A stretch of 64,000 nt of DNA from Ardenticatenaceae bacterium (lineage in GTDB: Bacteria; Chloroflexota; Anaerolineae; Promineifilales; Promineifilaceae), in NCBI GenBank assembly GCA_020634495.1, contig JACKBR010000018.1, positions 27,969 to 91,968 on the forward strand. Direction: 5' to 3'. The position numbers and the translations under genes were made by a program. The notes under the pieces are model-generated. The model ran no database searches. It was given only the letters and a program-made list of their open reading frames with translations, and was not told where the DNA came from. The number at the start of each line of letters is the position of its first letter. Position 1 is the first letter of the stretch. Below, in pieces: positions 1-64,000 of the stretch.

Positions 1-505
1 CCATTTTGTGCTTTATTGTTTCCGTAATCAGGTTGACGTCCACCGTGTACGAGACTTTCCATGAAACGGTGACAGGAATGCCATCCGCCGTGCGAATGTT
101 TTCTAATTTTCCTTTGGCCGTTAGGGATTTTTTGGGAATTGTCCCTCGGACTTCTTCGTACCAATGAAGGCGCACCAGGTAGGGATCGTTGATTGTAAAT
201 ACCCGTCGTCCAAAAGGAATCCAGCCTGGCTTGCGTGTGCGCTGGAGCTGGCGCACTGGCTCTGGTTCTGGGCTAACTGCAAAGCGTAGGAAGCTATTGT
301 TGATACGGTTGAAAATGACGCCTACTTCCATTTCATCCACCAGTGCTCCCCGGCGAAATGCAAACAGAACGGCCGTAACAAATAAAAAAACTATGAAAAA
401 CAGCAGGGCAATGCCTAATGCACCAAACGCTTCGTAAGTTGCGATAGTGACAAATCCTGCAAATAAAATAGCTGCGCCAAGAATTAGGGGATTTCTTAAG
501 TTCAT
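1..505 (-). CDS. SPFH/band-7 domain membrane protein (partial, C-terminus outside window)
   Basis: Reading from the ATG at 505 there are 168 open codons to the window edge with no stop, so the C-terminus is missing. A strong Shine-Dalgarno (GGGAGGT) lies just upstream of the ATG. Residues about 7-52 form two hydrophobic segments (a hairpin or two membrane spans). The following part resembles the start of an SPFH (stomatin/prohibitin/flotillin) domain, including the typical R-T-A-D-G-I-P-V-T-V stretch near residue 141. SPFH proteins form ring-like membrane scaffolds that often recruit proteases or organise lipid domains; this role is family knowledge, not seen here. The gene is divergent from the 914-2837 group across a roughly 400-bp regulatory gap. 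Confidence 0.7.
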   Translation of the reverse strand, partial: MNLRNPLILGAAILFAGFVTIATYEAFGALGIALLFFIVFLFVTAVLFAFRRGALVDEMEVGVIFNRINNSFLRFAVSPEPEPVRQLQRTRKPGWIPFGRRVFTINDPYLVRLHWYEEVRGTIPKKSLTAKGKLENIRTADGIPVTVSWKVSYTVDVNLITETIKHKM

Positions 506-670
506 GTTTACCTCCCAACGTGTGTTGAAACATTGAATGGAACAAGGTGTAGAACGCTGTTCAGATTGTAAACGGCGGACAGGCAATTTCCAAGCATTTG
601 TAAGGGATGTCAGCAAACTGTCGGGAAATAGTGATTGGTTGGGGTAGGGATAGCAAATTTGCCAAAAGTA

Positions 671-699
671 TTGACAAAGTGGCTGCATTAGACTATCAT
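671..699 (+). promoter_or_regulatory. Sigma-70-type promoter
   Basis: A perfect -35 box TTGACA (671-676) is followed by a 17-bp spacer and TATCAT (694-699, 5 of 6 matches to TATAAT). It points rightward to the 914 ORF and the SRPBCC fusion gene. The predicted transcript start, near 706, falls inside the operator-like repeat at 699-732, a position typical for repression. Confidence 0.55.
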
Positions 700-732
700 C
701 TAATAAGTTAGACGCTTATCTAATAGGTTAGA
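699..732. promoter_or_regulatory. Twin 14-bp operator-like repeat
   Basis: Two nearly identical 14-mers lie at 699-712 (TCTAATAAGTTAGA) and 719-732 (TCTAATAGGTTAGA). Each is an imperfect palindrome and their centres are 20 bp (two helical turns) apart. They sit directly at and after the -10 box of the promoter at 671-699. Related half-sites (CATTAGAC at 688, CCTAACG at 739) flank them. This geometry fits two dimers of a repressor (TetR, MarR or ArsR type). The regulator itself is not identified. The rest of the 506-913 gap shows only a small GGAAAC-TC-GTTTCC palindrome (858-871). Confidence 0.5.
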
Positions 733-913
733 TGGCTGCCTAACGACCCTATTGTACCAGCTCGGTTCTGAAAGCCAAAAAGATTTTTGAATGATAGCCG
801 TTTGAATATTAGCTTATCCCGGCGCTCTTTTTGGCCACCATCAACTGCATCATTGTGGGAAACTCGTTTCCAAACCATTTATTAACCAACAGAAAATTGT
901 GTAGGAGGCTACC

Positions 914-1024
914 ATGAATCTTTTACATCCAGACACATTTTATGAACACAATCGTGAGTATCAAAAACAACGTCTTGAGGAGAGCCAGAAATTGGGAGCT
1001 TATTTTATTGGGCTCAGTCGATGA
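914..1024 (+). CDS. Small hypothetical protein (36 aa)
   Basis: An ATG at 914 follows an excellent Shine-Dalgarno (AGGAGG, 903-908, 5-nt spacing) and runs 36 codons to TGA. The peptide is hydrophilic at its start, then rich in Glu/Gln/Lys/Arg (likely a short helix), with a slightly hydrophobic end. It has no recognisable domain. It lies between the promoter at 671 and the SRPBCC fusion gene 33 bp downstream, so it is probably the first gene of that operon or a leader peptide. The ribosome-binding site is the main argument that it is translated. Confidence 0.5.
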   Translation: MNLLHPDTFYEHNREYQKQRLEESQKLGAYFIGLSR

Positions 1025-1057
1025 GCGCGTAAGAGGCGCATATAAATGGAGGATGAC

Positions 1058-2269: not shown

Positions 2270-2285
2270 TTATGGGAGAAAATTA

Positions 2286-5420: not shown

Positions 5421-6512
5421 ATGACTATTACACCGCAGTTAACTTGGGAAATCGGCACAGCCTATGACCTTTTTACTAGCCTGAATGTGGTTCACGATCC
5501 GGCACGTTATGGTTTGCGTGGCTCTTGGGCCGCCGGGGTGCGCTCCCGCTTGCCGGCGGAGCAGCGGGAATTTTTGCAAGGAGCCGTAGAAAAGCATCAT
5601 TTTTGGGCGATCCCCTGGTTGGCTAACCAGGACGGGCCAAAGAACAGCGCTGCAATCCTAAAAAAGCTTGCCGAAATTCCAGCAGAGAACAGGATGAAAG
5701 AGTTATCTGCCTGTTATATGGATGAGTCCTGGCAGGCGTTACTTTTCCGGGTGGCAGAGCAAGGCATGTGGGATGCAAAAGACAAAAAGCAATTGCGCTC
5801 ACTTTATACCGAGATGTATAGGAAGGAAAGTGGCAAAAGCAAAAAAATCTCTGATGATGAATTGGTTGCCACGCTGAATATTTGGGCAGATACGGCCGTT
5901 TACAGCCAAAAAATGCTCCAGGCCCTGCAAATCTATTATGATGTTTTCTTCAAAGAAGAAGAAGCCAGGATTATTAAGCCACTAGAAGCACGGGTAGCCG
6001 AAGCCAAAGCGGTGGCCAAGAAATTGGCCCTCCCAGAACTGCTTAACGAACTTTCCCAGGGACTCCGTTTTGAATTTGACAAAACCAAAGATATGGAAGA
6101 GCTCGTTATGATCCCTTCCTTTTGGACTACCCCACTGTCCATGTTTATCCCCTTTTCCAAAGATAACAAACGTTGGCTTTTCATGTTTGGCGGCCGTCCC
6201 GATGGCGTATCCCTTGTCCCCGGCGAAGTGGTGCCAGAACTGCTTTATCAAATGCTGAAAGCCCTGGCAGACCCCACCCGCCTGCGCATTTTGCGCTACT
6301 TATCAGAAGAACCGCTTACCCCTGCTGAACTGGCTCGCCGGTTGCGCCTGCGCCCCCCAACCGTTATTCATCACCTGGATGCCTTGCGGCTGGCCCGACT
6401 GGTACACGTAACCCTAAGTATGCAAGGTCGCCGCTATGAAGCCAGACACGAAGCCATCAAAACCGTTTGCACCATGCTAGAGGGCTTTCTCGATGGCGAG
6501 ACCTTCACCTGA
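5421..6512 (+). CDS. ArsR-family HTH regulator with large N-terminal domain
   Basis: The 363-residue protein ends in a winged helix-turn-helix (about residues 275-345) with the ArsR-type sequence A-L-A-D-P-T-R-L-R-I-L-R-Y-L and L-T-P-A-E-L-A. The first 270 residues are mostly helical and charged and resemble the DUF5937-type ligand domains found before such HTHs; this match is from memory. No Cys pair for metal sensing is visible in the HTH, so small-molecule or protein sensing is more likely. A regulatory role for the adjacent MFS gene is an inference from position. A convergent terminator pair follows. Confidence 0.75.
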   Translation: MTITPQLTWEIGTAYDLFTSLNVVHDPARYGLRGSWAAGVRSRLPAEQREFLQGAVEKHHFWAIPWLANQDGPKNSAAILKKLAEIPAENRMKELSACYMDESWQALLFRVAEQGMWDAKDKKQLRSLYTEMYRKESGKSKKISDDELVATLNIWADTAVYSQKMLQALQIYYDVFFKEEEARIIKPLEARVAEAKAVAKKLALPELLNELSQGLRFEFDKTKDMEELVMIPSFWTTPLSMFIPFSKDNKRWLFMFGGRPDGVSLVPGEVVPELLYQMLKALADPTRLRILRYLSEEPLTPAELARRLRLRPPTVIHHLDALRLARLVHVTLSMQGRRYEARHEAIKTVCTMLEGFLDGETFT

Positions 6513-6521
6513 AAAAGAAAA

Positions 6522-6546
6522 AGGTGATAGTCCCAGACTATCACCT
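6522..6546 (-). terminator. Intrinsic terminator of the pilus operon
   Basis: A perfect 11-bp stem (AGGTGATAGTC with GACTATCACCT) has a 3-nt loop. Read on the minus strand it is followed by a T-rich tract (the complement of 6511-6521). It lies downstream of the minus-strand pilin gene that ends at 6607. Confidence 0.75.
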
Positions 6547-6566
6547 AAATAACTTGAACCTAAACA

Positions 6567-6605
6567 AAAGGTGGCGAGGAAAATATTCCCCGCCACCTTT
6601 ATTTA
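6567..6605 (+). terminator. Intrinsic terminator between convergent genes
   Basis: A stem AAAGGTGGCG / CGCCACCTTT (6567-6576 with 6591-6600) is followed by a TTTATTTAT-like tract on the plus strand. It would stop transcription of the ArsR-type gene. The stem can also act on the opposite strand. Confidence 0.7.
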
Positions 6606-6606
6606 T

Positions 6607-8151
6607 CTATGGGACAGAATAAACAACGATTAATTCAGGCGCTGGTGGCTGGTTGTTTTGGCCAGCATCTGCGCTGTCAAAGCGGAATCTATCACGCTCA
6701 CCATCCCCATCATCATCCAATTGGAAGTGAATTCTAAACTGGGTGAACCCATTCCGGTTAACAAGGCCAAAGTTGCCTGCTCCCAGTGTGCCTGTTGACC
6801 AATCATCGCTGTTTACCGTTGGGCTGAGGACAATGACATTTGTTCCCGCTGCCCCGGCAATAAAGTCAGCCGCCTGCAATGTGTAACTGCCACTAAAACC
6901 AGCAGCTGGAGCAATATCAGCATATAAGACGCCTAAGCCAAAGTCGCCAAATGGTGTGCCGTCCTGGCCATTGCGCTGTTGCAGCCTGAGCTGCACGCTG
7001 GTAATCGTTGCATTTGCCGGAATTGCTGAGGTATCAAAACTCACAATGCTGACATACTTCTCATTATCATTGCCGTTATAGTCACCGGCAAATAAGCTGT
7101 TGCTGGTGTTGTTCGTTTGGTTCGGATCACCCGTGTTTGACGTACCGTCTTCACGAATATACCCATCATGGTTCGCATTACTGTACAGTGTCAAGGTAAC
7201 CGGTGGCGGCGAGGTTGGCGTGTCCGTAGGCACAGGCGTTGCCGTTGGGGTTACAGGTGTTGGGGTCGCTGTTGGCGAATAAGGCTGAATGTCAAAGTAA
7301 TTAAAATTAACCGAACCGCTTATTATGGAGAAGCGCACGATGTTAGAGCCCGCAAAAAGTTGGACTGAACTTACAACATCATTCGCCCAATCTTGCCAAC
7401 CATTTGTTGAACCTAGAGAAATTATTCCTGTGTCGTCGTTAAGAATTCCGTTGTTTACCGTAATGCGAATACGTGGGTTGCTGGTGCTAAGAGAAGCATT
7501 ACGAATTGTAAAATCAACACCGGCAGCCTCAGCAGCAATAATTTCATATTCAAGCCATTCACCATCTCTAACCCAGCCAATATTTAAATTGCCGCCAGTT
7601 GGATCGTTTTGAACACCCTGTAAATCTGGCCCTTCAGCGCCTACATCCGTACGGTAACCTACGCTTCCAGGGCCGCCGTCGTTGTTAACTTCTTGGAAGG
7701 CTACCCCAGCGCCACCGCAGCGAAAATCTTCCATTTGAACCCGAATTGAGCCATTGGCTGCTAAGTTGTGTGGTCCAAAACCGCAGGGCGTAGGCGATGG
7801 CGTATTGGTGGCCGTTGGTGTGACAGGCGTGTTAGATGGGGTGGGGGGATCGGCTGTGTTAGACGGCGCTGGCGGCGGTGACGTATTTGTAGCCGTTGGC
7901 GGTAACGGTGCACTTCCATCTGGCGTAGGGGTGCTGGTGAAAGTGGGGGGCGGTGTGTAATTTAGCAGAGAGGGAGGCGCAACCGGTGCCTGGGCAACAA
8001 AGCGCGAGAAAACTTCGCCAACCGCAGGCTGCATGAGGCTAACAATGGCTACAACGGCAATGCCAACGAGTATCAGGATGATGGCATATTCCACAAAGCC
8101 TTGTCCTGATTCGTTTGTTTGATTTGAGGTGCTATGTTCAACGGTTTTCAT
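6607..8151 (-). CDS. Flp-type pilin fused to CBM6 and DNRLRE domains
   Basis: The product has 514 residues. Residues 15-50 form an Flp-pilin-like segment: G-Q-G-F-V-E-Y-A then a long hydrophobic helix. A Thr/Pro linker follows (about 60-115). Residues about 125-290 resemble a CBM6 carbohydrate-binding beta-sandwich (V-Q-M-E-D-F early, D-G-E-W-L-E-Y-E mid). After a second Thr/Pro linker, residues about 320-514 look like a DNRLRE domain (D-G-Y-I-R-E start, S-F-D-T-S-A-I-P, L-R-L-Q), usually found in cell-surface proteins. A typical Flp pilin is only 50-80 residues, so this looks like a minor pilin or pilus-tip adhesin. It is the last gene of the minus-strand operon; GAGG precedes its ATG. Glycan binding is inferred from the CBM6 match. 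Confidence 0.7.
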   Translation of the reverse strand: MKTVEHSTSNQTNESGQGFVEYAIILILVGIAVVAIVSLMQPAVGEVFSRFVAQAPVAPPSLLNYTPPPTFTSTPTPDGSAPLPPTATNTSPPPAPSNTADPPTPSNTPVTPTATNTPSPTPCGFGPHNLAANGSIRVQMEDFRCGGAGVAFQEVNNDGGPGSVGYRTDVGAEGPDLQGVQNDPTGGNLNIGWVRDGEWLEYEIIAAEAAGVDFTIRNASLSTSNPRIRITVNNGILNDDTGIISLGSTNGWQDWANDVVSSVQLFAGSNIVRFSIISGSVNFNYFDIQPYSPTATPTPVTPTATPVPTDTPTSPPPVTLTLYSNANHDGYIREDGTSNTGDPNQTNNTSNSLFAGDYNGNDNEKYVSIVSFDTSAIPANATITSVQLRLQQRNGQDGTPFGDFGLGVLYADIAPAAGFSGSYTLQAADFIAGAAGTNVIVLSPTVNSDDWSTGTLGAGNFGLVNRNGFTQFRIHFQLDDDGDGERDRFRFDSADAGQNNQPPAPELIVVYSVP

Positions 8152-8252
8152 AATGATGCCTCTTGGCTGCTATCTACCAATACAATTTCAATTAATCGTA
8201 ATATAAGGGTATAGAAATGTCTCTATGACATTGGTATACCAGAGAAAAACGG

Positions 8253-10244
8253 CTACTTTACAAGGTAAGGAAGCCCTTCAATTCGAATTTGCCAACCGTA
8301 AGTATCATTTTGACCGCCGGTATACCGTGCTGTCAAAATACCCCCATAAAATGGCGTGCAATCAAACATATTTGGATTACTGTAATCGCAGTTGTCTAGT
8401 TCACCCGGTACAGTAATTTGGTAAGGTGGAAACACCCAGCCAGAATTTGCTCCTGATATAGATCCATTGGCTGCACAACTGCCTGGGACGCAGCGCCCTG
8501 CGCCTAGACCATCCGGGTCTGCCACCCCATTCACCCCAAAAGCCATCGCCCAGTCGGTTTTGTCTGGATCATAACCCAGGTCGGTTCCGTCTGCTGGGGT
8601 AAAGGCGATGGTGTCAAAGAAGAAAATGACGGGCGGCTCTGCGCCGGAGTCAGAATCGAACATGGTAACTTCAATGGTTTGCCCGGTCATTTCTGGACTG
8701 ACATAGAGCAACGGAATGTTCACCGGATTGATGTCGTTGTTATTGTCTGCATAGTTGGAGTTCATGGGCAGGTTGCCTAAACCAAAAACCGTAGCGCCCT
8801 TTGAGCTGTGGGAGCCAGGATTGTTCAAAATATGCAGGTTCCGCAAATTTACATCGCTTGGCACGGTGCTGGTATAAGTTGCTGGCCCGGCCCAAATCTC
8901 AAAGCCATTTTCAGAAGAACCGCTGAGCGTGGTCACATCTAAAAAGATGTACCTTGCGTTGGTGCTTTGGTCACGCACGATGCCGGGAACATCCTGTGTT
9001 AAATCAATCTCAAAGCTATCAATTTGCAGTGGGGTTACCTGAAGATCTGGGCCATTTGGATTTGGATCATAATCATAACCGAAGCTCATATCGGCTCCTG
9101 GAGAAACCCAATACATGTCTGTACTGGGATCCCCATTGTCTCGTGAAGCCTCGCCCGTTTGGCCGTAATAAGTAACCAGGTCAATGCGCTCAACGGTGCC
9201 ATCTGCGTTTTGGCGGAAGTAATAGAGTGTAAAGTCAGTTCGCGTGTTATAGCCTACCGAATAATTGCTAGGCTCACCACATGTGCCATTGCCTGGAGCG
9301 CCACCTGTGCCACGATTTTCATCAATCCGAACAAACCAATAAGGATTTACTTGATCAATATCGAGAAAAGGCGATCCTGTGACCAGGTCTTTTTCGCCTG
9401 TCCGCAGCAGGCAGGGCTGTTTTTGGTTGCTGCTGCCACCATCACCATTTGGCTCTGGCCCGCAATTTTTAGTTTCTGAGGGGTTGGAAAAGTAGGGATT
9501 CGCTATATCTGAATGAAAGATTTCATGATCGTTTTTACTTGCGTTAACAGAATCGGGGTCAAACAACTCAACCCGTAAAATGTCCTCGGGATAATCGTCC
9601 GGCACCAAGATGCGATATTGGTAAGTATAAGAATCTGGGGCAAACGGACTGCTCCAGGGCGAAAAAGGGTCACCGAAGTTGACACAAATTTGGGGGCCAA
9701 ACACTGCCTGGTTGGATGTGCTCAGGACGCCATCTTCAACGCGGCGGCTGGCATAAATATCGGCCAAGGAAAAGACAGCGGCCGTTGCCGACCGGGTCAG
9801 ATTGATGGGTTCTCTAAATCCCAGCACTTTCAGAAAAAACGTTTCTACAGGCCAGGTGGCGGTAACAGCATATTGAGTTGCACCTAATAATGTGGCCTCT
9901 ACCTGGTAATTGTTTGGATTATTTAAGGATGTTGTTACCGATATTGGCATGTTGTTGGCGTTAAGAAATTGAGCCGACTTGGTGAGGGCGTTATTTTCCA
10001 GAGCTATGTCTTCTGCTGATCCAGCACTCGTCCAGCCGGATAGTTCAACGACCCCTGCTAAAGCGGCCGAATCGATGGCGGCCTGGAGCTGTGAACCGCG
10101 GGCAAAAATGAAGCCAACATCAATGGCAATACCCACCAAGGCTATGATGGCGACCATCATTAAGGCGATGAGGACAATGCTTTGCCCTTTTTGGCTTTGT
10201 TCAGCATCTGGTTGACGTTGAAAGAATTGTTTGACTCGGTTCAT
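8253..10244 (-). CDS. TadG-like pilus-associated protein with large exoplasmic domain
   Basis: The product has 663 residues. After a short basic start, residues about 18-70 carry the TadE/TadG-type signature (K-G-Q-S-I-V-L-I-A-L-M then I-A-L-V-G-I-A-I-D-V-G-F) and the D-S-A-A-L-A-G motif common in TadG N-termini. The rest is a long beta-rich extracellular region with many Asp, Asn and Gly residues and several Cys. It shows no von Willebrand A motif I can identify and no Thr/Pro linker. TadG proteins are minor pseudopilins of Tad/Flp systems. AGGA lies upstream of the ATG. It is about 90 bp from its neighbours on either side. Confidence 0.7.
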   Translation of the reverse strand: MNRVKQFFQRQPDAEQSQKGQSIVLIALMMVAIIALVGIAIDVGFIFARGSQLQAAIDSAALAGVVELSGWTSAGSAEDIALENNALTKSAQFLNANNMPISVTTSLNNPNNYQVEATLLGATQYAVTATWPVETFFLKVLGFREPINLTRSATAAVFSLADIYASRRVEDGVLSTSNQAVFGPQICVNFGDPFSPWSSPFAPDSYTYQYRILVPDDYPEDILRVELFDPDSVNASKNDHEIFHSDIANPYFSNPSETKNCGPEPNGDGGSSNQKQPCLLRTGEKDLVTGSPFLDIDQVNPYWFVRIDENRGTGGAPGNGTCGEPSNYSVGYNTRTDFTLYYFRQNADGTVERIDLVTYYGQTGEASRDNGDPSTDMYWVSPGADMSFGYDYDPNPNGPDLQVTPLQIDSFEIDLTQDVPGIVRDQSTNARYIFLDVTTLSGSSENGFEIWAGPATYTSTVPSDVNLRNLHILNNPGSHSSKGATVFGLGNLPMNSNYADNNNDINPVNIPLLYVSPEMTGQTIEVTMFDSDSGAEPPVIFFFDTIAFTPADGTDLGYDPDKTDWAMAFGVNGVADPDGLGAGRCVPGSCAANGSISGANSGWVFPPYQITVPGELDNCDYSNPNMFDCTPFYGGILTARYTGGQNDTYGWQIRIEGLPYLVK

Positions 10245-10332
10245 ATGATTATCCTGAAAATTAACTAACGAAATTTTTCATTTGCTGCATAGAGCGTTGA
10301 TGTTCCAATGTGCCTGATCTAATGATTATTGA

Positions 10333-11625
10333 CTATGGACCAGTCGAAGCTACCTGGCCGCAAGAATTATCCCAACGAATAAACTCGGCTAAAATCCAGT
10401 TTTGGCTCAGGTTGTAGCCAATGATACGAAAGATAGCGAAGCCATTTTGGTCATCAATATGGTAAATTGTGTTGTCCCCGGTGCCGGTGGAGCTGTCCCA
10501 GACGATAACCCGGAGGGTGCGATCCAGCTGAACATGCTCATCGAGTGCTTCGCGGACTGCGCTTGAATTGACAACACCAGTATCTCCTGCTACATAATCA
10601 TCCAGATGTAAAGCCTGATCGGTGACGTTGCCTGGTTCAATGTATCCGCGTGGTTTAAAGTTACCACCCCAACCGTTAATTGGGCCTAGGCTACCATTAC
10701 TGACGCTATCGTTATAGTCATTGTAGTCGGTGCTGTTGCCCGGCCAGGCTAAACTTTCTGCCAGGTTGGGCGCGTTAGCGGTGATGGCCTGGTTCCAGTG
10801 GAGCCAGCCAAAGTTACCGCCTCCAGGCCCATTGTAGATTCTGTACACATAGCCTTCTTTGGCGTCTAGCAGGGATTGGTTATCTACATGGTTAAAGTAT
10901 TGGTTGTAGGTAGGACGATTGCTGCTGGGGTATGTAAAATCGCTTGCGTTGGGGAAGTCATAGGCGCTTGCTTCGCCATCATCGGGGTCTGTGACAGAGC
11001 GTATGCCTTCATAAACGGCGATGGGGAAGGCGGCGCAGCCTTTGGTAACCTCATTGCCGGTGGCGGTAACGCGCATGACGCTGAGGGCATCGCGTGACAT
11101 AAAGCCATTAAACTGGGGTAGAGCACTTAGGCCCAGGATGGAATCTACGTCGTGAATGGCGTAGGTTGCTACAAACTCAATGTCTGAGGCGAGGGCGTTA
11201 TCTGTTACTTTATTTTGGTCTTGCTGGAGTTCTTCCAAGATACGATTTTGTATATCCGTAGGGTTGATCGAAGACGAACGGACAGTATTGGATATGCCAT
11301 ATTCATGTTCGAATTCCCAATCGATAATTCCATCGCCATTTTGATTTACTTTGCCCCGAATGACCCATAAATCCCAAAGTGTCGGATCGACTTCCAGGGT
11401 TTGGGTGACGGTGTTGAGGACGACGTTGGCGACACCGACGTTTTCTCCACCGTTGGCTGCAAAGCGTGTTCCGGCTCGTGCTGCACTGCTGATGCGGTTT
11501 TGGGTAACAATTAGCTGCGATACCTCTACCAGCCCAGCAAGTAGGATGATGAAGATTGGAAAGAAGAGGGCAACTTCTACCAGACTTTGACCATGCTGTT
11601 TGTGTTTGTTTGCGTTGGTGTTCAT
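10333..11625 (-). CDS. TadE-like pseudopilin with exoplasmic domain
   Basis: The product has 430 residues. Residues 11-60 hold the TadE-like signal: H-G-Q-S-L-V-E-V-A-L-F-F-P, a hydrophobic helix, then S-S-A-A-R-A-G-T-R-F-A. A TadE protein is usually about 150-200 residues, so the extra 250 C-terminal residues are an addition of unknown fold, rich in Asn, Asp and aromatic residues. GAGGT precedes the ATG. It probably assembles with the neighbouring pseudopilins; this is inferred from operon position. Confidence 0.7.
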   Translation of the reverse strand: MNTNANKHKQHGQSLVEVALFFPIFIILLAGLVEVSQLIVTQNRISSAARAGTRFAANGGENVGVANVVLNTVTQTLEVDPTLWDLWVIRGKVNQNGDGIIDWEFEHEYGISNTVRSSSINPTDIQNRILEELQQDQNKVTDNALASDIEFVATYAIHDVDSILGLSALPQFNGFMSRDALSVMRVTATGNEVTKGCAAFPIAVYEGIRSVTDPDDGEASAYDFPNASDFTYPSSNRPTYNQYFNHVDNQSLLDAKEGYVYRIYNGPGGGNFGWLHWNQAITANAPNLAESLAWPGNSTDYNDYNDSVSNGSLGPINGWGGNFKPRGYIEPGNVTDQALHLDDYVAGDTGVVNSSAVREALDEHVQLDRTLRVIVWDSSTGTGDNTIYHIDDQNGFAIFRIIGYNLSQNWILAEFIRWDNSCGQVASTGP

Positions 11626-11702
11626 TTTTTACCTCGACTGCTTCCGATGAATCGGTTGATATATTGCTCCTTTATATTATCTATAAGCGTCAGTTGATTT
11701 GT

Positions 11703-12377
11703 TTAAGGAGCAGTTGATTCCAATAATTCTCCAGATGTAGCGTCTAGCCGTACGGTAAGCGCTTGATTGGTTTGTAAAGAGAAAAGGGAGATTTGCCATT
11801 CCATACGGCCGTTTCTCTCTTGATCATCTGTAAATAGGGCCATCGTTAGGGTAGAGACGCCAGCGCTTTCTATGAAGCTGTTGCCGCCAGCGTTTAAAAA
11901 TGACTCAATGGCTTCCTGGCTGTCTAAGTTCCAGCCTGTGACGGATAAAATAGGCGCTTCCTGGTTGTGTGGCCCTTCGCTAACGACAACGGCCGTATCT
12001 TCCACCACTGACACGATGGCTATTTTTTGCACCGAGGCAGCGTAGAAGGTGAAGCCCCAGGTGGTTTTGCCCTGGCGTAAATCGGTGGCGGTGGTTCCTT
12101 GGGGCCAGGTGGCCTGGGCATTGAGCAAAACGGCGTCGGGCTGCCAGTCTTCGGCCGTTTGCTGTGCTTTGGCATAGGCGACCATGGCGGTACGGCCGTC
12201 GAAGACCGACGTTGGAGCAATGTCATCGGCTCGTTCAGCGATGATGGTGGCGGAATTGGCGGTGGTGTTGGAAACGGCCGTGCTGCGGTTGCCAAACCAA
12301 AACGTCAGCGATAGGCCCGCTACCACAATCAGCAATACCACCATGATTATTCCTAATACCCACTCAAACCGTTTCAT
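11703..12377 (-). CDS. Membrane-anchored hypothetical protein in pilus operon
   Basis: The product has about 224 residues from the ATG at 12377 (an in-frame GTG at 12383 is possible). There is one membrane segment near residues 6-28, then a soluble exported domain with no family I recognise. The gene starts 16 bp after the stop of the beta-propeller gene and is followed by the TadE-like gene, so it belongs to the same transcript. Unlike its pilin neighbours it contains four copies of the ACGGCCGT palindrome. Confidence 0.55.
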   Translation of the reverse strand: MKRFEWVLGIIMVVLLIVVAGLSLTFWFGNRSTAVSNTTANSATIIAERADDIAPTSVFDGRTAMVAYAKAQQTAEDWQPDAVLLNAQATWPQGTTATDLRQGKTTWGFTFYAASVQKIAIVSVVEDTAVVVSEGPHNQEAPILSVTGWNLDSQEAIESFLNAGGNSFIESAGVSTLTMALFTDDQERNGRMEWQISLFSLQTNQALTVRLDATSGELLESTAP

Positions 12378-12392
12378 AATCACACATCTAAG

Positions 12393-21712: not shown

Positions 21713-22116
21713 CCGTTGTTTTGGATGCATCTGTTTACGTGGCCATGCTGAAGCGTGAAGAGCCAAATCATGCGGCCAGCCAGAACTGGTACAACGAGGC
21801 TTTAGCCAGCGGAACACCTTTAGCCGCGCCGCTGCCGTTTCTGGCAGAAGTGGCAGGCGCGATTAGCCGATCAACTGGTGATACACAGCTAGCCGAAGCG
21901 GTTTTAGCCCAAATTCAGTCGTTGGGTGTGATTGAGCTCATTCCGGTGAACGATTTCTTGGGTGTTCGGGCGGCAGAAATTGCTGCCAGGCACCGTCTGC
22001 GCGGCTGTGACGCGCTTTACGTCGCTGTTGCTGAACAGTTGGGCGCGGTGTTGGTATCTTTGGATCAAGAGCAGTTGGCGCGGGCAACGGCCGTAATCCC
22101 CACGCGCCAGCCCTGA
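21709..22116 (+). CDS. vapC: VapC-type PIN-domain toxin
   Basis: The 135-residue PIN domain shows the acidic active-site residues D6 (V-L-D-A-S-V-Y), E47 (L-A-E-V), D101 (C-D-A-L-Y-V-A-V-A) and D119 (S-L-D). This is a complete PIN ribonuclease site, typical of VapC toxins that cut tRNA or rRNA. The ATGA overlap with the antitoxin gene gives translational coupling. No inactivating change is visible. Confidence 0.87.
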   Translation: MTVVLDASVYVAMLKREEPNHAASQNWYNEALASGTPLAAPLPFLAEVAGAISRSTGDTQLAEAVLAQIQSLGVIELIPVNDFLGVRAAEIAARHRLRGCDALYVAVAEQLGAVLVSLDQEQLARATAVIPTRQP

Positions 22117-22180
22117 TTTTTGGAACGGCCGTTTTTGTTGTACCATTCCCCCGAATCGCAATTCGCTAAAATAAAACGCA

Positions 22181-54769: not shown

Positions 54770-56398
54770 TTAAGGGGAAGGCGCATTTGGCGGGGTTGGG
54801 GTTGGTGGATTAGAGGGTGTAGTTGGTTGGGGTACGGCCGTAGGCTCATCGCCGGGGGGGACGGCCGTAGCTTGCTCGGTTGCTGTTGCGGCAGGTTCTG
54901 GGGGTGCGGGTACCCAAATTTCCTGGCCAATGCTGAGCAAAATAGTTTCCAGGCAGTTCACCTCTTGCAAGCGTTCTACTGTGGTATTGCCAGCCTGGCT
55001 TATAGACGAGAGGGAATCATTTGCCTGAACGCTGTAGCGAACCCAGCCAAATGGAGGGGATGGCACACAACTCTCTTCAGTTGGTTCAGCAGTAGGTGAG
55101 GCGGTGGTGGTAATTTCAAGCGTGGGAGTGGCAGTTAAGATTGGGATGGATTCAGTAGGGGTAGCGACAACGGCCGTTTCTGTTGGGCTGGGCCGGACGG
55201 TAGGCGTTTCTACCTCCTCGGTAGGGGGAAGCACCTCATCTTCGTCCAAACGGGTTGCGGTGGTTGCCTCAATGGTGATAGCTGTCGGGCTGCTAGCAGG
55301 CAAATTATCTTGATCGATAAGTACGGCCGTTTCTATTTCCAAGGGCAGCGCGGCGGCGTCTGGCGTTGGTGTGCTGTTGTTACCCTGGCGGTTTGCCCGA
55401 CCTCGCATGAGCATCAAAACCAGGAATAGCAACAAGAGAAACACCAGTGCAGGAATCGCAAATTTGAGCACTTTTGGCTGGCGTAAACGGTTGAGCAATA
55501 ACAGCCAGACGGGTGGCGGGGGCGGCGGTGGGGCCGATTCCTCGGCAATGGCCTGGTCCAAGGCGGCAATTTGGGCATCGACCGTTTCGTAGCGGCTCCA
55601 TTCCTTTTGCCAGATGCTGTCTTGAACGGCCGTAAAAGTAGCGGCCGCTAAATCCTGGCGAACTTGATTGAGCGGTTGTTCGCGGGCCATGCCCTTGTGC
55701 TCAAAAATATCCCACTCAGAGACCGGCAGCGCAGGTTGCTGACCCGCCAACAGCCGGTACAGCAAAATCCCCAGCGAATAAATATTGCTGCGCCCAGACA
55801 ACGCTTTACCCGTTAGCTGCTCTGGAGATTGATAATCCAGTTCGGTTAATGGCGCTTCCTCAAGTTGAACGGCAGCAGGCGGAGTGGACGGCACCGCCAG
55901 GTCTAGCAAATGAGGCTGGCCAGTTTTAGACAAGTAGATGTTTTCTGGACGTAAATCGTGGTGGATGAGCCCGTTGGGGTGCGAAACTGCGAATCCGGCA
56001 GCAATTTGCTTTACAAGGTTTAGCGCCTCGATGATTTTTGCTTTGTCGTCTGGGGGCGGCGGCGCTGAATTTTCCAGTTGAGCGGCTAAAAATTCCCCGG
56101 CCACGTGCGCCATTACGGCATACGGCCGTTTCCCATCAACGCCAAAATCCAGCAGCGGGGGAAACAGAGGATGGTCTAATTGAGACAATGTTTCTGCGCG
56201 CCGCTGAAACCGCTCGACCAGGTCTGAAGAGCGTGCTGCCTCAGGCTGAAGCGTCACCAGAAAAACTTTAGAATCCGTTTTTTCATCTTGGGCCAGGTAG
56301 ATGGCGCTAATAGTCTGCACCACAAGGGGGTCGATTAGCTGGTAATGACTTATTGTATTGTCATTGTCTTTTTTACTTTTTATGGATGCCATAGACAT
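54770..56398 (-). CDS. Membrane pseudokinase with LysM ectodomain
   Basis: The product is about 542 residues from the ATG at 56398; a TTG at 56416 also exists. The kinase fold spans about 18-275. The beta-3 Lys is replaced (V-F-L-V, position 48). The catalytic loop reads H-H-D-L-R-P-E-N (146-153), with Asp kept but Lys changed to Arg, and D-F-G reads D-L-A (166-168). A membrane helix at about 312-336 is followed by a Thr/Pro-rich linker and a LysM domain near residues 455-505 (Y-S-V-Q-A-N-D-S-L-S-S-I-S), which could bind peptidoglycan. The protein probably senses the wall; activity is doubtful. Confidence 0.75.
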   Translation of the reverse strand: MSMASIKSKKDNDNTISHYQLIDPLVVQTISAIYLAQDEKTDSKVFLVTLQPEAARSSDLVERFQRRAETLSQLDHPLFPPLLDFGVDGKRPYAVMAHVAGEFLAAQLENSAPPPPDDKAKIIEALNLVKQIAAGFAVSHPNGLIHHDLRPENIYLSKTGQPHLLDLAVPSTPPAAVQLEEAPLTELDYQSPEQLTGKALSGRSNIYSLGILLYRLLAGQQPALPVSEWDIFEHKGMAREQPLNQVRQDLAAATFTAVQDSIWQKEWSRYETVDAQIAALDQAIAEESAPPPPPPPVWLLLLNRLRQPKVLKFAIPALVFLLLLFLVLMLMRGRANRQGNNSTPTPDAAALPLEIETAVLIDQDNLPASSPTAITIEATTATRLDEDEVLPPTEEVETPTVRPSPTETAVVATPTESIPILTATPTLEITTTASPTAEPTEESCVPSPPFGWVRYSVQANDSLSSISQAGNTTVERLQEVNCLETILLSIGQEIWVPAPPEPAATATEQATAVPPGDEPTAVPQPTTPSNPPTPTPPNAPSP

Positions 56399-57450: not shown

Positions 57451-59823
57451 TCACGGCCGTTTTGCCAGGGTGAGCGTGTGTTTGGCGGCGGCCTGCACAT
57501 CTGCCTGGTGCCACAGGATGGGGAAATTTTCACCTTGCTGCCACATCGCAGCTAAATCGTCGTAGTGGGGGCTGCCCAGATAGCCCGACTGTCCTGGCGT
57601 TAGCATTGCCTCGGCACGCTCAATGGCGCTCAGGTCGATGATGAGGCGCGAGGAGACCGAGATGCCATCGCTGGCAAAGCTGCCGGGGCGCGTGCCCGCC
57701 TGGGCCACGGTGTTGGCATCGCCACCCAGCGGCAGCGGCCCCACGTTAAAAACACGGTCAAATGGCGCAATCTGCCCCAGCGCGTGCCGGAAGGTGACCT
57801 GGTGCAGCTGGCCCCACTGCCAGTTAGCCGAATCTTCGCCTAGCGTTTGTTGTAAAACGGCCGTTGCCCCACCCAAGCAGCGTTCAATAAGCGCGTTTCG
57901 CGTAGCGACGGAATCAAGCCAGGGCGACGGCACATCTGCCAAAATATTTAACAAATTGACCAGCCAATACCCCTGAAACTCATTGACCGGGTGCAGATTT
58001 TCACTCATCCCTTGGCCCAGCAGGTAAGGCAGCAGGTCAGGCGGCACTTTGGCTGGCAGCAGCGCCTGCGTAAGCTGCTCAACCAGGGCATGAAAAACAG
58101 CGCCGCCCACGCTGTTTGGGCGCAGCGAACCATCCCACGCCTGTAGCTGGATGAGGGCCAGTTGGGCGGCTGGATCGATTACGTGCAAACCATCAAGCAG
58201 CGCCACCAACTGCAAGCCTGGCAGGCTGTGCTGGTCTAGCTGAATGCGGCGGCAGTCGGCCACGCTGAGTTTTGGCTGGCTGGCCAGCAGCTGGCGAATG
58301 CGTTCGGCACGGTAGCCATTGCGCCACAGCTGCCCCAGGTTGTGCTTGCTATTTTCCGGCGGCAGCAGGCGGTGGTTGGCAGAAATGATGAGGCCGGATT
58401 GGGGATTGAGGGCGTGGGGCATTTCGCTGAACGGCACCACGCCTACCCATTCGTGGCTGCCAGCCCAGCCGGGCGCAGGCAGGCTGCCATCTCCGGCAGC
58501 GCGGAGAGGCACCTGCCCGGTGACCCAATGCCCGATGTTGCCTTTTTGGTCGGCATACAGCAGGTTGAGCGAGGGGGCCTGGATGCGGGCAACGGCCGTT
58601 ACAAATTCATCCCAGTTTACGGCCGTATTCACCCAGCCAAAGCCATCGACGGTGATGCCGCTGCGCAGGGCGGTGGAGCTAAAAGCCAGTGGCTGCGTTG
58701 CCCCCGCCAGCAAGTTGTGGATTAGCGGCCCGTGGTGGGTCAGGCTGACAATTTCCTGGTGTGGCTTTTGCAGGCGAATGGCAATCTCTTCCTCGATTTG
58801 CTCAACCGGACGCCACTCGTTGCCAAATTGGTACAAAGTTGGGTTCTCTGGATGCAGTTTTTCAATGAACAGGTCTTCGCAGTCGGTGTAGGCCAGCGTT
58901 GCGCCCCAGGCAATCTGCCCGTTATGCCCCACCATGACGTAGGGCAGCCCCGGCAGGGTAAACCCGGCCACGTGCAGGCCAGCGGCGCTGTGCAAATGTT
59001 GGAAGTGCCAGATGGAGGGTGTGCCAACCGGCAGGTGCATGTCGTTGGCCAAAATGGCTCCACCCGTTTGGCTGCGCTCTGGGGCAATGACCCAGCCGTT
59101 GCTACCCCGGCCTGCGCCGTCCAGGTTGCCTTTGCCCAGGAAGGGATTTTGCCAGGGAACGGCCGTTCCCCGCCAGGCATCGATCCATTGGGCATTTTCC
59201 TCCAGGCCGTCGGGCAGCGTGGCTGGAAATTGGTCAGGATAGGTCATCAGCAGATCGTTTACCAGCTCCGGATCAACTTGCTGCAACAGCTGCGCTTTTA
59301 CCAATTCGCCAATGGCTCCGTGGGTGAGCGCCCACATTTGCAAATGGCCATAGGCCAGCGAATCGAGCAGCTGCCAGGGCTGGGGGCGGTGCTGCACAAT
59401 GCTAAACTCGATGGGCAGTTGGGGATTGCTTTGCAGGAAGGCGTTAATGCCTTCTGAGTAGGCGACCAGGTCGCTGTGGGCCTGGGCTTCCAGCGTTGGT
59501 AGGGTGGCTTTGGCCAATCTGGCAAAACCAAAGGTGCGGCTCAAGCGGTCTGTTTCCAGGGTGATGGGGCCAAAAACGGCCGAAAGCGTGCCGTTGGCCG
59601 CACGGCGGTTCAGCTCTAGCTGCCATAATCTGTCCTGGGCATGGACAAAGCCCTGAGCCAAAAACAGGTCGTGGCGACTGTTGGCCTGGATGTGGGGCAT
59701 GCCCCATTGATCGCGATGAATAGTAACGTTGTCCTGGAGCTGGGGCAGGTAGATACGGCCGTCTTGCTGCGGCATTCGTTGGCGGCTCCAGCGTTGGACA
59801 ATGGTTTTAAGTCGGTCGGCCAT
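57451..59823 (-). CDS. Penicillin acylase-family Ntn hydrolase
   Basis: The 790-residue protein is colinear with penicillin/acyl-homoserine-lactone acylases. An alpha-chain region (D-Q-W-G-M-P-H-I-Q-A, then G-F-V-H-A-Q-D-R-L-W-Q-L-E) is followed by a processing site G-R-G-S-N-G-W, whose Ser241 becomes the N-terminal nucleophile of the beta chain. A linker around residues 205-235 may be excised. Typical relatives are secreted, but I see no signal peptide at this start. Substrates could be amides or lactone signals. It starts 7 bp after the M23 gene stop. Confidence 0.88.
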   Translation of the reverse strand: MADRLKTIVQRWSRQRMPQQDGRIYLPQLQDNVTIHRDQWGMPHIQANSRHDLFLAQGFVHAQDRLWQLELNRRAANGTLSAVFGPITLETDRLSRTFGFARLAKATLPTLEAQAHSDLVAYSEGINAFLQSNPQLPIEFSIVQHRPQPWQLLDSLAYGHLQMWALTHGAIGELVKAQLLQQVDPELVNDLLMTYPDQFPATLPDGLEENAQWIDAWRGTAVPWQNPFLGKGNLDGAGRGSNGWVIAPERSQTGGAILANDMHLPVGTPSIWHFQHLHSAAGLHVAGFTLPGLPYVMVGHNGQIAWGATLAYTDCEDLFIEKLHPENPTLYQFGNEWRPVEQIEEEIAIRLQKPHQEIVSLTHHGPLIHNLLAGATQPLAFSSTALRSGITVDGFGWVNTAVNWDEFVTAVARIQAPSLNLLYADQKGNIGHWVTGQVPLRAAGDGSLPAPGWAGSHEWVGVVPFSEMPHALNPQSGLIISANHRLLPPENSKHNLGQLWRNGYRAERIRQLLASQPKLSVADCRRIQLDQHSLPGLQLVALLDGLHVIDPAAQLALIQLQAWDGSLRPNSVGGAVFHALVEQLTQALLPAKVPPDLLPYLLGQGMSENLHPVNEFQGYWLVNLLNILADVPSPWLDSVATRNALIERCLGGATAVLQQTLGEDSANWQWGQLHQVTFRHALGQIAPFDRVFNVGPLPLGGDANTVAQAGTRPGSFASDGISVSSRLIIDLSAIERAEAMLTPGQSGYLGSPHYDDLAAMWQQGENFPILWHQADVQAAAKHTLTLAKRP

Positions 59824-61614: not shown

Positions 61615-61644
61615 TTTATTTTCAAAGGTAGGGGTGGGTGGGGT

Positions 61645-62481: not shown

Positions 62482-62509
62482 GCTTGCTGCTGAAATGTGT
62501 TTTGCGGGT

Positions 62510-62881
62510 TTAGGCATCATTATAGAAATAGGCGGCAACTTGATCGGCAAAGGTTTTTACATTGATAGGTTTGGTAATGCAACCGTCACAACCATATTGC
62601 TGGGCCATTTCTAACGCTTTGTCTGAAGGCCAGGCGGTGATAGCCACTATCGGGATATTTTCCATATCGGGAATTTGTTTTAGCAGGGTAACGACGGTTT
62701 GCCCGTCCACATCGGGCAAACCCATATCTACCAAGATGAGGTCTGGCTTTTCTTCGATTGCCAGAGAGACTCCCGTTTCCCCATCTGCTGCATGCAGCAG
62801 GCGATAATTGTGTGGTTCAAGAACGCGCTCAACTAACAGGCGGTTGGCGCGATTGTCTTCTATTTGTAATATGGTTTTCAT
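62510..62881 (-). CDS. Single-domain response regulator (CheY-like)
   Basis: The 123-residue receiver domain has the acidic pair E8-D9, phospho-acceptor D52 (L-V-D-M-G-L-P-D), a Thr in A-I-T-A and the conserved Lys in I-T-K-P-I. All catalytic positions are intact. There is no output domain. It could receive phosphate from an orphan kinase such as the one at 41247-42446, but that link is a guess. Confidence 0.9.
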   Translation of the reverse strand: MKTILQIEDNRANRLLVERVLEPHNYRLLHAADGETGVSLAIEEKPDLILVDMGLPDVDGQTVVTLLKQIPDMENIPIVAITAWPSDKALEMAQQYGCDGCITKPINVKTFADQVAAYFYNDA

Positions 62882-62889
62882 CAGTTAGA

Positions 62890-63144
62890 TCATGTTTGTG
62901 GCGGCGGCACGGGCAGGTCGGCAACGGCCGTATCACGCCATTTCATCCCTTCGTCAATTAACATGACCGGGATTCCGTCTCGGATAGGATATTTCATGTT
63001 GGTGTCGGCGCAAACCAGCCAGCAACCATGAACAATTTCTAATTTTCCAGGATCATCCCCAAACTCTGTTGATTGTACTGCCATTGGACAGCGCAAAATC
63101 TCAAGTAATTGAGGGCTGATGGGTAAATCACTACTGGGTGTCAT
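62890..63144 (-). CDS. Trm112-like protein
   Basis: The 84-residue protein resembles the Trm112/UPF0434 family: L-L-E-I-L-R-C-P, then V-C-A-D-T-N-M-K-Y-P-I-R-D-G-I-P-V-M-L. Trm112 acts as a zinc-binding partner that stabilises methyltransferases; only two or three Cys remain, so zinc binding is uncertain. GAGGAA precedes the ATG. Confidence 0.8.
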   Translation of the reverse strand: MTPSSDLPISPQLLEILRCPMAVQSTEFGDDPGKLEIVHGCWLVCADTNMKYPIRDGIPVMLIDEGMKWRDTAVADLPVPPPQT

Positions 63145-63225
63145 GCAATTCCTCGCTTTATATTTTCACGTAAACGTTTCTGGCAATCATACGCATCTTC
63201 AAAAAAGTGGCAAACGGGTCAGGCG

Positions 63226-64000
63226 CTAGGGGTCTCGCACGCAGCGGAAGCCCACGGCCGAACTGATAAAGTCTGGCGTGAGCGAGCTGCGATTGGTGGC
63301 CCGAATGCGATCTGCCTGGTTATTAAATGGCCAGGCGCCACCCCGAATAACGCGGGCAAATCCGGTTTCTGGCCCGGATGGATTGCTAATATTGCTTTCT
63401 GCGTACCAGGTTTCTTTGTACCAATCGGCCGTCCATTCCCACATGCTGCCAGCCATGCTAAAAATACCAAAAGCGCTGGCCCCGTTGGGTAACGCATCCA
63501 CCGGTTTTAGATTTTCGTAGCTGTCGCTTTGGAAAACGGCCCGGTCGCCTTCTGGTTCTGGTTGGATGCTGCCCCAGGGATAGATACGGCCGTCTGTCCC
63601 TCTGGCGGCGTATTCCCATTCTGCTTCCGTGGGCAGGCGGGCTCGCACCGATTCGCAATACAACTTGGCACCATACCAGCTTACATGGTTGATGGGGTAG
63701 TTGGCGTAGCCAGTGGTGGGAAAATATTGTACGGTGCCATCCCCTAAATCTTGTCGTACAAGATAGCTGGTATAGCCAGCCAGCTCTTGTGGCCAGGCAC
63801 AATCAACCCCTTCGCAGGCTCGTTCGTAAGAGCCGAGCCTGTTTAGGAAAGCAGCATACTGCTCCACATTCACCTCAAATTTGTCCATGTAAAACTGCGA
63901 GAGGCGCACCTCGTGGGCCGGACGTTCATCTGGGGCGGCTACAAAATCATCCTCTGCGGCTCCCATGGTAAACATGCCAGCCGGAATGAGCAGCATAACC
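63226..64000 (-). CDS. Formylglycine-generating-enzyme-type (SUMF1) protein, 5' partial
   Basis: The frame is open to the window edge, so the N-terminus is missing. The visible 256 residues form the FGE-sulfatase fold: P-A-G-M-F-T-M-G, L-P-T-E-A-E-W-E-Y-A-A-R-G, G-S-M-W-E-W-T and R-V-I-R-G-G-A-W, ending V-G-F-R-C-V-R. Active sulfatase-activating enzymes need two Cys in the C-terminal part; only one clear Cys is visible near the end. A binding or kinase-associated role is therefore also possible. Confidence 0.8.
   Translation of the reverse strand, partial: VMLLIPAGMFTMGAAEDDFVAAPDERPAHEVRLSQFYMDKFEVNVEQYAAFLNRLGSYERACEGVDCAWPQELAGYTSYLVRQDLGDGTVQYFPTTGYANYPINHVSWYGAKLYCESVRARLPTEAEWEYAARGTDGRIYPWGSIQPEPEGDRAVFQSDSYENLKPVDALPNGASAFGIFSMAGSMWEWTADWYKETWYAESNISNPSGPETGFARVIRGGAWPFNNQADRIRATNRSSLTPDFISSAVGFRCVRDP

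Follow-up and report, generated by a model that had tools for sequence, protein, structure and literature searches.

A HIP-like iterated palindrome outside the cyanobacteria: an octamer of Chloroflexota genomes and its candidate solitary methyltransferase

The palindrome in the window

The window, i.e. the whole 64-kb stretch of DNA that was analysed, carries exactly 95 copies of the palindrome ACGGCCGT by exact 8-bp count, where about one is expected. The copies, the close pairs among them, the longest stretch that lacks the palindrome and the ORFs lying whole within that stretch are as follows.

369, 1109, 1298, 1693, 2054, 2689, 4240, 5154, 5892; unstranded; ACGGCCGT starts (8 bp each, here and below)
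11805, 11989, 12192, 12274, 13494, 16086, 16265, 16322, 16661, 16873, 17330, 17844, 18237, 18441, 18474, 19002; unstranded; ACGGCCGT starts
21556, 22087, 22125, 22453, 22943, 23306, 23643, 23875, 26160, 26732, 27114, 27301, 27821, 28658, 29104; unstranded; ACGGCCGT starts
30921, 32273, 32352, 32841, 33690, 34576, 35908, 36639, 36935, 38290, 38583, 39693; unstranded; ACGGCCGT starts
40117, 40228, 40641, 42501, 43009, 43148, 43232, 43537, 43684, 44242, 45313, 45767, 45951, 46150, 46772, 47053, 47359; unstranded; ACGGCCGT starts
50442, 51205, 52403, 53010, 53448, 54000, 54834, 54861, 55170, 55323, 55626, 56122, 56652, 56837, 57453, 57857, 58592, 58619, 59159, 59755, 59954; unstranded; ACGGCCGT starts
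60941, 61586, 61650, 62924, 63586; unstranded; ACGGCCGT starts
18441..18481; unstranded; close pair, 33 bp start to start
22087..22132; unstranded; close pair, 38 bp start to start
54834..54868; unstranded; close pair, 27 bp start to start
58592..58626; unstranded; close pair, 27 bp start to start
5900..11804; unstranded; longest ACGGCCGT-free stretch, 5.9 kb
6607-8151, 8253-10244, 10333-11625; minus strand; three whole ORFs inside the ACGGCCGT-free stretch

A first-pass annotation had set about 95 copies against about one expected, and had proposed a Markov background as the check. The estimate stands, since the base composition of the window predicts 1.1 copies and second- to fourth-order Markov models fitted to it after masking of CGGCCG predict 0.5-1.1, and background models thus fail to explain the 95 copies. 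In simulations with nothing masked (100 sequences per Markov order) the highest count rose from 4 at order 1 through 5, 8 and 20 to 78 at order 5; the order-5 model, with a mean of 51.8 copies, has largely memorised the motif. The runner-up 8-bp palindrome in the window has 10 copies.

The spread over unrelated genes and intergenic DNA described in the annotation is borne out, with 89 copies within ORFs and 6 outside (1.54 vs 0.97 per kb), ORFs here, as in the phases and the enzyme and nurA loci below, being the product of simple longest-ORF picking rather than of a gene caller. All three reading phases are likewise present, as the annotation had it, in unequal shares: of 72 placements in 32 ORFs (site 39693 counting twice because two ORFs overlap there), 49 read T-A-V, 11 x-G-R and 12 x-R-P. 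A weak extension to W-ACGGCCGT-W is seen at 75 of the 95 sites; no such flank preference was found in 400 kb of a relative, G011.

The ACGGCCGT-free stretch has a GC content of 0.487 vs 0.524 elsewhere in the window, and a gap as long as this has a chance of about 1.6e-4 per interval. Spacing is not regular in the 400 kb of G011, where intervals are near exponential (CV 1.06; variance/mean of 10-kb counts 1.09), with a mild depletion at 20-80 bp (53 vs 74.4 expected).

Site strictness and conservation

Among 83 dense loci (583 kb; at least one copy per kb, picked among loci recovered with a triple-copy pattern, one of them, from Lachnospiraceae, not being Chloroflexota) exact ACGGCCGT occurs 1,313 times against 10.4 expected, a density biased upward because the loci were chosen for copies; the window and the 400 kb of G011 were not selected in this way. 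Within the same loci one-letter variants inside CGGCCG number 163 vs 173.2 expected, and variants of the outer letters 298 vs 91.4, a three-fold rise. The six core letters are all-or-none and the outer pair is slightly leaky.

At orthologous positions ACGGCCGT is exactly kept in 38/49, 34/42 and 10/10 cases, and control octamers with six G/C are kept in 14-18%. Ortholog identity climbs across the 8 bp and drops at both edges, and in nurA and herA the sites fall at the same codons between genera.

Distribution among genomes and viruses

In relatives the enrichment is genome-wide, against the annotation's refuting case of none outside the window. A search of 56 genomes from the order to which one relative belongs (Chloroflexota, probably Promineifilales) gave 26 with 5,641-15,176 copies of ACGGCCGT (1.0-2.1 per kb), and no genome with more than 646 copies was found among 300 others drawn from Chloroflexota. 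Among the matches listed in the triple-copy pattern scan, 23 of 24 Chloroflexota genomes are high in ACGGCCGT; the exception, G021, has 90 copies, and its match looks like a misbinned contig. G331 has 2,984 copies in 3.0 Mb and G332 has 2,887 in 6.6 Mb.

In a few genomes from that order another palindrome takes its place at similar density, and the palindromes of sister genomes are mutually exclusive. TCGGCCGA reaches 9,414 copies in G329 and 7,668 in G339, where ACGGCCGT numbers 198 and 85, respectively; GCGGCCGC reaches 12,040 copies in G348, its reversed control 2; and TGCCGGCA has 3,665 copies in G336. In G330, G352-G354 and G356 (sampled) and in G355 (by counts) enrichment of CGGCCG is flank-agnostic. 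The 31 genomes treated below as having an octamer palindrome are the 26 above 5,000 copies together with G331, G332, G329, G339 and G348, and 28 of them have ACGGCCGT. The 25 others include the TGCCGGCA genome G336 and, because all or most CGGCCG flanks are enriched there, G352 (2,982 copies of ACGGCCGT in 5.8 Mb), G330 (1,727) and G356 (1,189).

A HIP-like system exists outside cyanobacteria: the palindrome stands far above Markov expectation, occurs in relatives genome-wide at about one per kb in coding and intergenic DNA, and is replaced in some of them. The counts in relatives, the alternates, the conservation and the strict core give good support to the earlier suggestion that this genome has a HIP system of its own with CGGCCG at its centre.

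Some viruses share the palindrome. Four of eight viral records counted carry ACGGCCGT at 1.6-3.5 per kb (227 in 65.5 kb, 226 in 100 kb, 106 in 46 kb and 89 in 57 kb), the first of these having portal, terminase and head genes; the other four have less than 1 per kb. Phages rich in TCGGCCGA were looked for and rejected, the search giving 7 stretches with 4-7 copies each.

A candidate methyltransferase

The best candidate for the recogniser of ACGGCCGT, judged from sequence, is a solitary amino-methyltransferase of ~660 aa with motif I DPMMGGGTT and motif IV TDPPY, distantly DUF1156-like. It is found (E<1e-90, some matches being only pieces at contig ends) in 29 of the 31 octamer-palindrome genomes vs 14 of the 25 others (Fisher p 0.0013, kinship not corrected). 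Since 14 genomes that lack a strong palindrome also have it, the enzyme is not sufficient; degenerate catalytic motifs are rejected as the reason, motifs I and IV being intact in 11 of 11 such genomes read. Two high-copy genomes, G007 and G013, gave no match, though their assemblies may be incomplete. A 6.36-Mb contig labelled Candidatus Leptofilum also encodes the enzyme.

The enzyme appears to track the palindrome type, with residue 555 following that type. The residue was read in 22 of the 28 ACGGCCGT genomes, both TCGGCCGA genomes, the GCGGCCGC genome and 11 of the 14 other enzyme-bearing genomes. All 22 ACGGCCGT genomes and the GCGGCCGC genome have N there, and the two TCGGCCGA genomes have K; of the 11 without a strong palindrome, 10 have a residue other than N, the exception being G350. 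For N the comparison is 22/22 vs 1/13 (Fisher p 1.6e-8, before G014 was read and with kinship not corrected); because the genomes are related, neither the enzyme nor the residue association is independent. In the enzyme tree (25 rows; seven genomes without the palindrome were left out because the script motif missed them) the residue varies with type in at least two branches. No single swapped recognition block was found between types, which diverge across both the middle and the end of the protein.

The solitary methyltransferase suggested in the annotation is thus to be met as a candidate in relatives, where it follows the palindrome type, and is not encoded in the 64-kb window. A C5 methyltransferase as universal cause is rejected by its absence from 12 of 26 high-copy genomes, and ordinary N4/N6 methyltransferases above the Pfam cut-off are not universal among the matches listed, PF01555 having no match over its curated cut-off in G011 and G007. 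The candidate is lacking in G330, G352-G356 and G336, where another cause is needed. A Dcm-like C5 enzyme common to G330, G353 and G354 may be a cause of flank-agnostic enrichment; G341 has it too, however, and CGGCCG is not among the most enriched palindromes there. A phage-borne form of the candidate was rejected, viral contigs yielding only 8 distant relatives (e.g. 52% identity over 33 residues).

No neighbour is common to all 20 enzyme loci viewed, and there is no restriction gene among eight Pfam-scanned neighbour proteins, many ORFs being unclassified. The enzyme gene lies directly upstream of nurA on the same strand in 5 of the 20 enzyme loci (not adjacent in 15), and in 8 of 19 enzyme-bearing genomes (not adjacent in 11), the 19 nurA loci being partly chosen in that both genes lie on one contig. 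NurA was rejected as a genome-level correlate because 50 of the 56 genomes have it, irrespective of palindrome. For the repair role raised in the annotation, the position of some enzyme genes near nurA and herA is no more than a hint.

Proposed mechanism and alternatives

In a first step ACGGCCGT would be the recognition site of the solitary amino-methyltransferase, which would place a methyl group on a cytosine within CGGCCG; cytosine is the suggested target because GCGGCCGC holds no adenine. Motif IV of the DPPY type is commoner in adenine than in cytosine enzymes, which counts against the cytosine reading. Were the specificity of the enzyme to change, the outer pair would be replaced throughout the genome. 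In a second step a DNA-processing machine would read the marked sites, the most plausible one being the HerA-NurA helicase-nuclease, whose genes the methyltransferase gene adjoins in several genomes; the marks would identify DNA as self, or restrict or steer the resection of ends. Each extra site would bring a small independent benefit, and if site number reflects a balance between mutation and selection (or drive), the scaled strength per site is given by the log enrichment of ~4.8. Phages that encounter this machine would acquire the sites too. Taken as a whole, the account in which ACGGCCGT, as the highly iterated palindrome of one Chloroflexota lineage (probably Promineifilales), is explained by recognition by the methyltransferase together with reading by HerA-NurA is about evenly poised between right and wrong. 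An extended form, in which the enzyme would write ~10,000 sites per genome for HerA-NurA to read as a symmetric methylated counterpart of Chi, changes of enzyme would re-code the genome and phages would need dense copies to survive, is speculative and on balance unlikely.

Best placed of the alternatives, although still rather improbable, is the methyl-directed mismatch-repair ratchet of Elhai's HIP1 model (PMC4390886, sections 3.4 and 3.5), in which replication errors that create the methylated site tend to be kept and those that destroy it corrected, the palindrome being a functionless by-product. The all-or-none core, the retention of sites and the density near one per kb fit such a ratchet, which would act on phage DNA too, and the GC step sits inside the core. 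However, Elhai's saturation at about 1 per kb should give regular spacing, unlike the near-exponential intervals of G011; no nuclease able to do the correction was found, and a ratchet alone leaves the outer base pair unexplained.

Selection by some other sequence-specific DNA-binding protein, serving nucleoid or chromosome organisation or transcription, with the methyltransferase link due to shared ancestry, seems decidedly doubtful. The methyltransferase is neither sufficient nor in every high-copy genome, its associations are uncorrected for kinship, and the weak W flanks of the window resemble a binding-site footprint; against this, residue 555 differs by type in separate branches, the spacing is not regular, and viral densities up to 3.5 per kb, above the bacterial 1.0-2.1, do not suggest chromosome architecture.

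A DNA uptake signal, raised in number by biased uptake in natural transformation, is very improbable. Thousands of scattered exact copies do resemble the many short genome-wide copies of the uptake sequences of Neisseriaceae and Pasteurellaceae described in PMC1939737; unlike ACGGCCGT, however, those are non-palindromic, enriched in one-mismatch forms (947 vs 86 expected for Actinobacillus pleuropneumoniae) and over-represented in non-coding DNA, whereas here coding density is higher, single-letter variants of the core stay at the expected number, with only those of the outer letters raised three-fold, and viral contigs carry the palindrome. An artefact of composition, codon use or protein repeats, to which the preponderance of T-A-V might point, is refuted by the core-masked models that give about one copy, by the presence of ACGGCCGT in all phases and in intergenic DNA, and by conservation that ends at the 8-bp edge.

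Comparison with known systems

HIP1 of cyanobacteria, GCGATCGC, has been a puzzle for three decades (a 1995 report stands in the reference list of PMC1939737), and as far as the text of PMC4390886 goes its cause is still modelled, not shown. According to the latter source HIP1, like ACGGCCGT, is an 8-bp GC-rich palindrome found about once per kb in most genomes of its clade, with alternates in some relatives and linked solitary methyltransferases; HIP1 goes with enzymes specific for CGATCG and GATC, and here the methyltransferase link is a candidate one. Unlike HIP1, ACGGCCGT belongs to a different phylum and is a different sequence with a CGGCCG core, GCGATCGC having 0-1 copies per dense Chloroflexota locus; the candidate is a DUF1156-like amino-methyltransferase, and C5 enzymes are missing from nearly half of the high-copy carriers. 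The Synechocystis HIP1 decamer has 1,830 one-mismatch forms vs 160 expected (PMC1939737), again unlike the core of ACGGCCGT. The alternate cyanobacterial palindromes (TCGATCGA, GGGATCCC, GGCGCC, rCCGGy and GCsGC; PMC4390886, section 2.3) likewise replace HIP1 in some lineages at comparable density; unlike them, three of the Chloroflexota palindromes share a common core and differ in the outer pair, at about 7,700 to 15,200 copies per genome. Neither Chloroflexi nor CGGCCG is mentioned in the main text of PMC4390886, and among the matches listed from the open-licence PMC literature none dealt, in title or abstract, with a palindrome of this kind in Chloroflexota.

Strict sites in a second clade, together with mutually exclusive palindromes, their presence in phages and a single methyltransferase in which one residue follows the palindrome type, offer a natural experiment on selection vs repair drive, and the HerA-NurA neighbourhood names a testable reader of the putative mark.

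The DUF1156 antiphage methyltransferases (NF042963; PADLOC DUF1156_MTase) give partial profile matches to the candidate over the motif I and DPPY blocks; three candidate orthologs score 76, 75 and 68 bits, far short of the curated cut-off of 1,000, and the candidate is shorter than that profile (~660 vs 960 positions). M.Ssp6803II of Synechocystis (GGm4CC) is a cytosine N4-methyltransferase on GGCC linked to DNA replication and repair; it recognises 4 bp, and its abstract assigns it no iterated 8-bp palindrome (PMC6560206). Viral contigs dense in HIP1 exist as well, 64 of 106 triple-match stretches having at least 1 copy per kb.

An octamer palindrome in the window

The octamer ACGGCCGT, a palindrome with the core CGGCCG, is present in 95 exact copies in the 64-kb window, where 1.1 are expected from base composition and 0.5-1.1 from core-masked Markov models of orders 2-4; the runner-up 8-bp palindrome has 10 copies. 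The first-pass annotation had counted about 95 copies against about one expected, a count that is reproduced here and that a Markov background does not account for. Simple ORF picking places 89 copies inside ORFs and 6 between them, and the 72 placements in 32 ORFs use all phases with T-A-V the commonest (49/72), which bears out the earlier description of copies in every reading phase and in intergenic DNA. The unit is an octamer; A or T is found directly outside it at 75 of the 95 copies, a weak preference that is not common to the relative genome G011. The longest stretch of the window free of ACGGCCGT, 5900-11804, has a GC content of 0.487 vs 0.524, encodes a DNRLRE-domain protein, an unclassified 663-aa protein and a weakly TadE-like protein, and is possibly recently acquired DNA.

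Distribution among relatives and alternate palindromes

A search of species genomes for a pattern of three palindrome copies gave, among the matches listed, many Anaerolineae/Chloroflexota MAGs together with scattered other phyla. Counts in 28 genomes found by this triple-copy pattern were 5,641-15,176 in 23 of the 24 Chloroflexota, the exception being G021 with 90, and 32-101 in each of four genomes outside Chloroflexota (e.g. 101 copies in the 2.8 Mb of G025). Matches in Bifidobacterium contigs (L063, L067, L083, L051, L081, L047) show one recurring 71-bp arrangement and are likely a repeat, not enrichment genome-wide. The maximum among 300 further genomes of the phylum is 646. Of the 56 genomes in G020's order, 26 have more than 5,000 copies, an enrichment outside the window such as the first-pass annotation had anticipated, and several more are intermediate:

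Intermediate ACGGCCGT counts in the order of G020
G331: 2,984 in 3.0 Mb
G352: 2,982
G332: 2,887
G330: 1,727
G356: 1,189

The window's succinyl-CoA ligase protein (385 aa) shares 95% identity with that of G014, 94% with that of G019 and 91% with that of G017. We infer that the order of these relatives is Promineifilales, because the candidate methyltransferase of G019 (see below) has 86% identity to a protein labelled Candidatus Leptofilum, which NCBI places in that order.

Alternate palindromes were first seen in samples of low-ACGGCCGT genomes of the order and then counted genome-wide. TCGGCCGA and GCGGCCGC share the core with other outer pairs: the former has 9,414 copies in G329 and 7,668 in G339, the latter 12,040 in G348 (reversed control 2), a genome with just 83 ACGGCCGT and 65 TCGGCCGA. 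TGCCGGCA, with 3,665 copies in the 4.0 Mb of G336 (L168, L169, L246, L446), is an alternate with a different core. The palindrome types are mutually exclusive among genomes of the order. CGGCCG with varied flanks is enriched in samples of G330, G352, G353, G354 and G356 (L180-L185, L359; 131 in 21.8 kb of G330), and its enrichment is weak or nil in the remaining low-copy genomes sampled, which are some of that set.

Exactness, conservation and spacing

Across a large part of an order the palindrome is kept exactly at the DNA level, and its alternates are exclusive. The 83 dense loci (583 kb) hold 1,313 exact copies where 10.4 are expected; the 18 one-letter variants within CGGCCG total 163 vs 173.2 expected and the six outer-position variants 298 vs 91.4. 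Four viral stretches give 147 exact copies vs 1.0 expected, and 12 core one-offs vs 14.9. In 400 kb of G011 the enrichment is 89-fold for the outer pair A..T and 0.6- to 5.8-fold for the other 15 pairs. Core one-offs are thus near background, unlike the one-mismatch forms of an uptake sequence (947 vs 86 expected) and of the decamer of HIP1, the iterated palindrome of cyanobacteria (1,830 vs 160), as tabulated in PMC1939737. In the available portion of the literature the key comparison for iterated palindromes is PMC4390886, and in the accessible text of PMC8093824 HIP primers serve strain typing only.

Window sites are kept exactly at 38 of 49 positions in G014, 34 of 42 in G019 and 10 of 10 in G017, as against 14-18% for control octamers with six G/C in the same alignments (77-78% DNA identity); identity climbs across the 8 bp and drops at both edges. 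Even between genera ACGGCCGT occurs at identical codons of nurA and herA, two herA positions having it in all four ACGGCCGT genomes, and none of eight TCGGCCGA sites of G329 and G339 coincides with ACGGCCGT in three aligned genes. Weak per-site selection and biased repair predict an equal balance, with a log enrichment of 4.84. Repair of saturating range is mildly disfavored by the near-random spacing of ACGGCCGT in G011, which is approximately exponential (CV 1.06; variance/mean of 10-kb counts 1.09).

A candidate methyltransferase: METHYLTRANSFERASE

Of the order's 56 genomes, 26 encode a C5 methyltransferase (PF00145), and 12 of the 26 high-copy ACGGCCGT genomes have no PF00145 match; G011 and G007 have no PF01555 match above cut-off. 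Weak permuted PF01555 matches in several genomes revealed a conserved protein of ~660 aa, an apparently solitary amino-methyltransferase, in which motif I (DPMMGGGTT) is followed by a variable middle and motif IV (TDPPYFDS). It is distantly DUF1156-like, scoring under that family's cut-off, and no solved structure came out as a close match. The protein (E<1e-90, some copies only pieces) is present in 29 of 31 octamer-palindrome genomes, i.e. the 26 high-copy genomes with G331, G332, G329, G339 and G348, vs 14 of 25 others (Fisher p 0.0013, uncorrected for kinship). The solitary methyltransferase that the first-pass annotation proposed has a candidate counterpart in relatives, although no gene for it lies within the 64-kb window. 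The ~660-aa protein is absent from G330, G352, G353, G354 and G356. A Dcm-like C5 enzyme is common to G330, G353 and G354 and is also present in G341.

All 22 ACGGCCGT genomes read have N at residue 555 (HHW-N-P), as does G348, and both TCGGCCGA genomes have K; of 11 genomes read that have the enzyme without a strong palindrome, 10 carry a residue other than N. Sequence divergence between enzyme types is not limited to a single block. In a 25-row tree the two TCGGCCGA enzymes group together on long branches (support 70/90), a pairing that may reflect branch attraction, and palindrome-less genomes are placed at more than one point.

No partner gene is common to all 20 enzyme loci viewed. The enzyme gene sits immediately upstream of nurA, in the same orientation, in five (G001, G329, G338, G339, G348), and in eight of 19 nurA loci of enzyme-bearing genomes, partly picked for having both genes on one contig (those five with G002, G022 and G331). 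Further along, herA follows in five of the eight (G001, G002, G022, G329, G339); the G339 enzyme gene is split into two frames. NurA itself occurs in 50 of the 56 genomes. Other PF01555 methyltransferase genes lie in or beside the nurA-herA region in L447 (G009, between nurA and a ~210-aa ORF), L448 (G010) and L446 (the TGCCGGCA genome G336, downstream of herA at 5468-6466).

In the proposed reading ACGGCCGT would be recognized by the solitary methyltransferase, and HerA-NurA may read the mark. Since GCGGCCGC is without adenine, any function common to the enzyme family would be cytosine methylation. In the available parts of the sources, Synechocystis GGm4CC is tied to replication and repair (PMC6560206), GANTC, TTAA and GCWGC are reported for three Chloroflexi genomes from Lake Biwa, of which two are CL500-11 (PMC6329791), and GGCC does not appear in the main texts of PMC12772301 and PMC13340088.

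Viral records

Four of eight viral records counted are dense in ACGGCCGT, and the remaining four have 9 to 32 copies. The 65.5-kb record (227 copies) has genes for portal protein, terminase and major head protein, and the 57-kb record (89 copies) a tail- or endolysin-type peptidase and a RecT-like protein; the 100-kb (226 copies) and 46-kb (106 copies) records, possibly plasmid-like, have partition proteins with FtsK-like or terminase-like matches. Cyanobacterial HIP1 (GCGATCGC) is likewise dense in viral contigs, and dense viral copies are therefore a feature common to both palindromes. Because HIP1 density is 3-5 per kb in 20 of the 106 viral stretches that a triple-copy pattern picked out (L466-L571), the carriage of an iterated palindrome by phages may be a general phenomenon.
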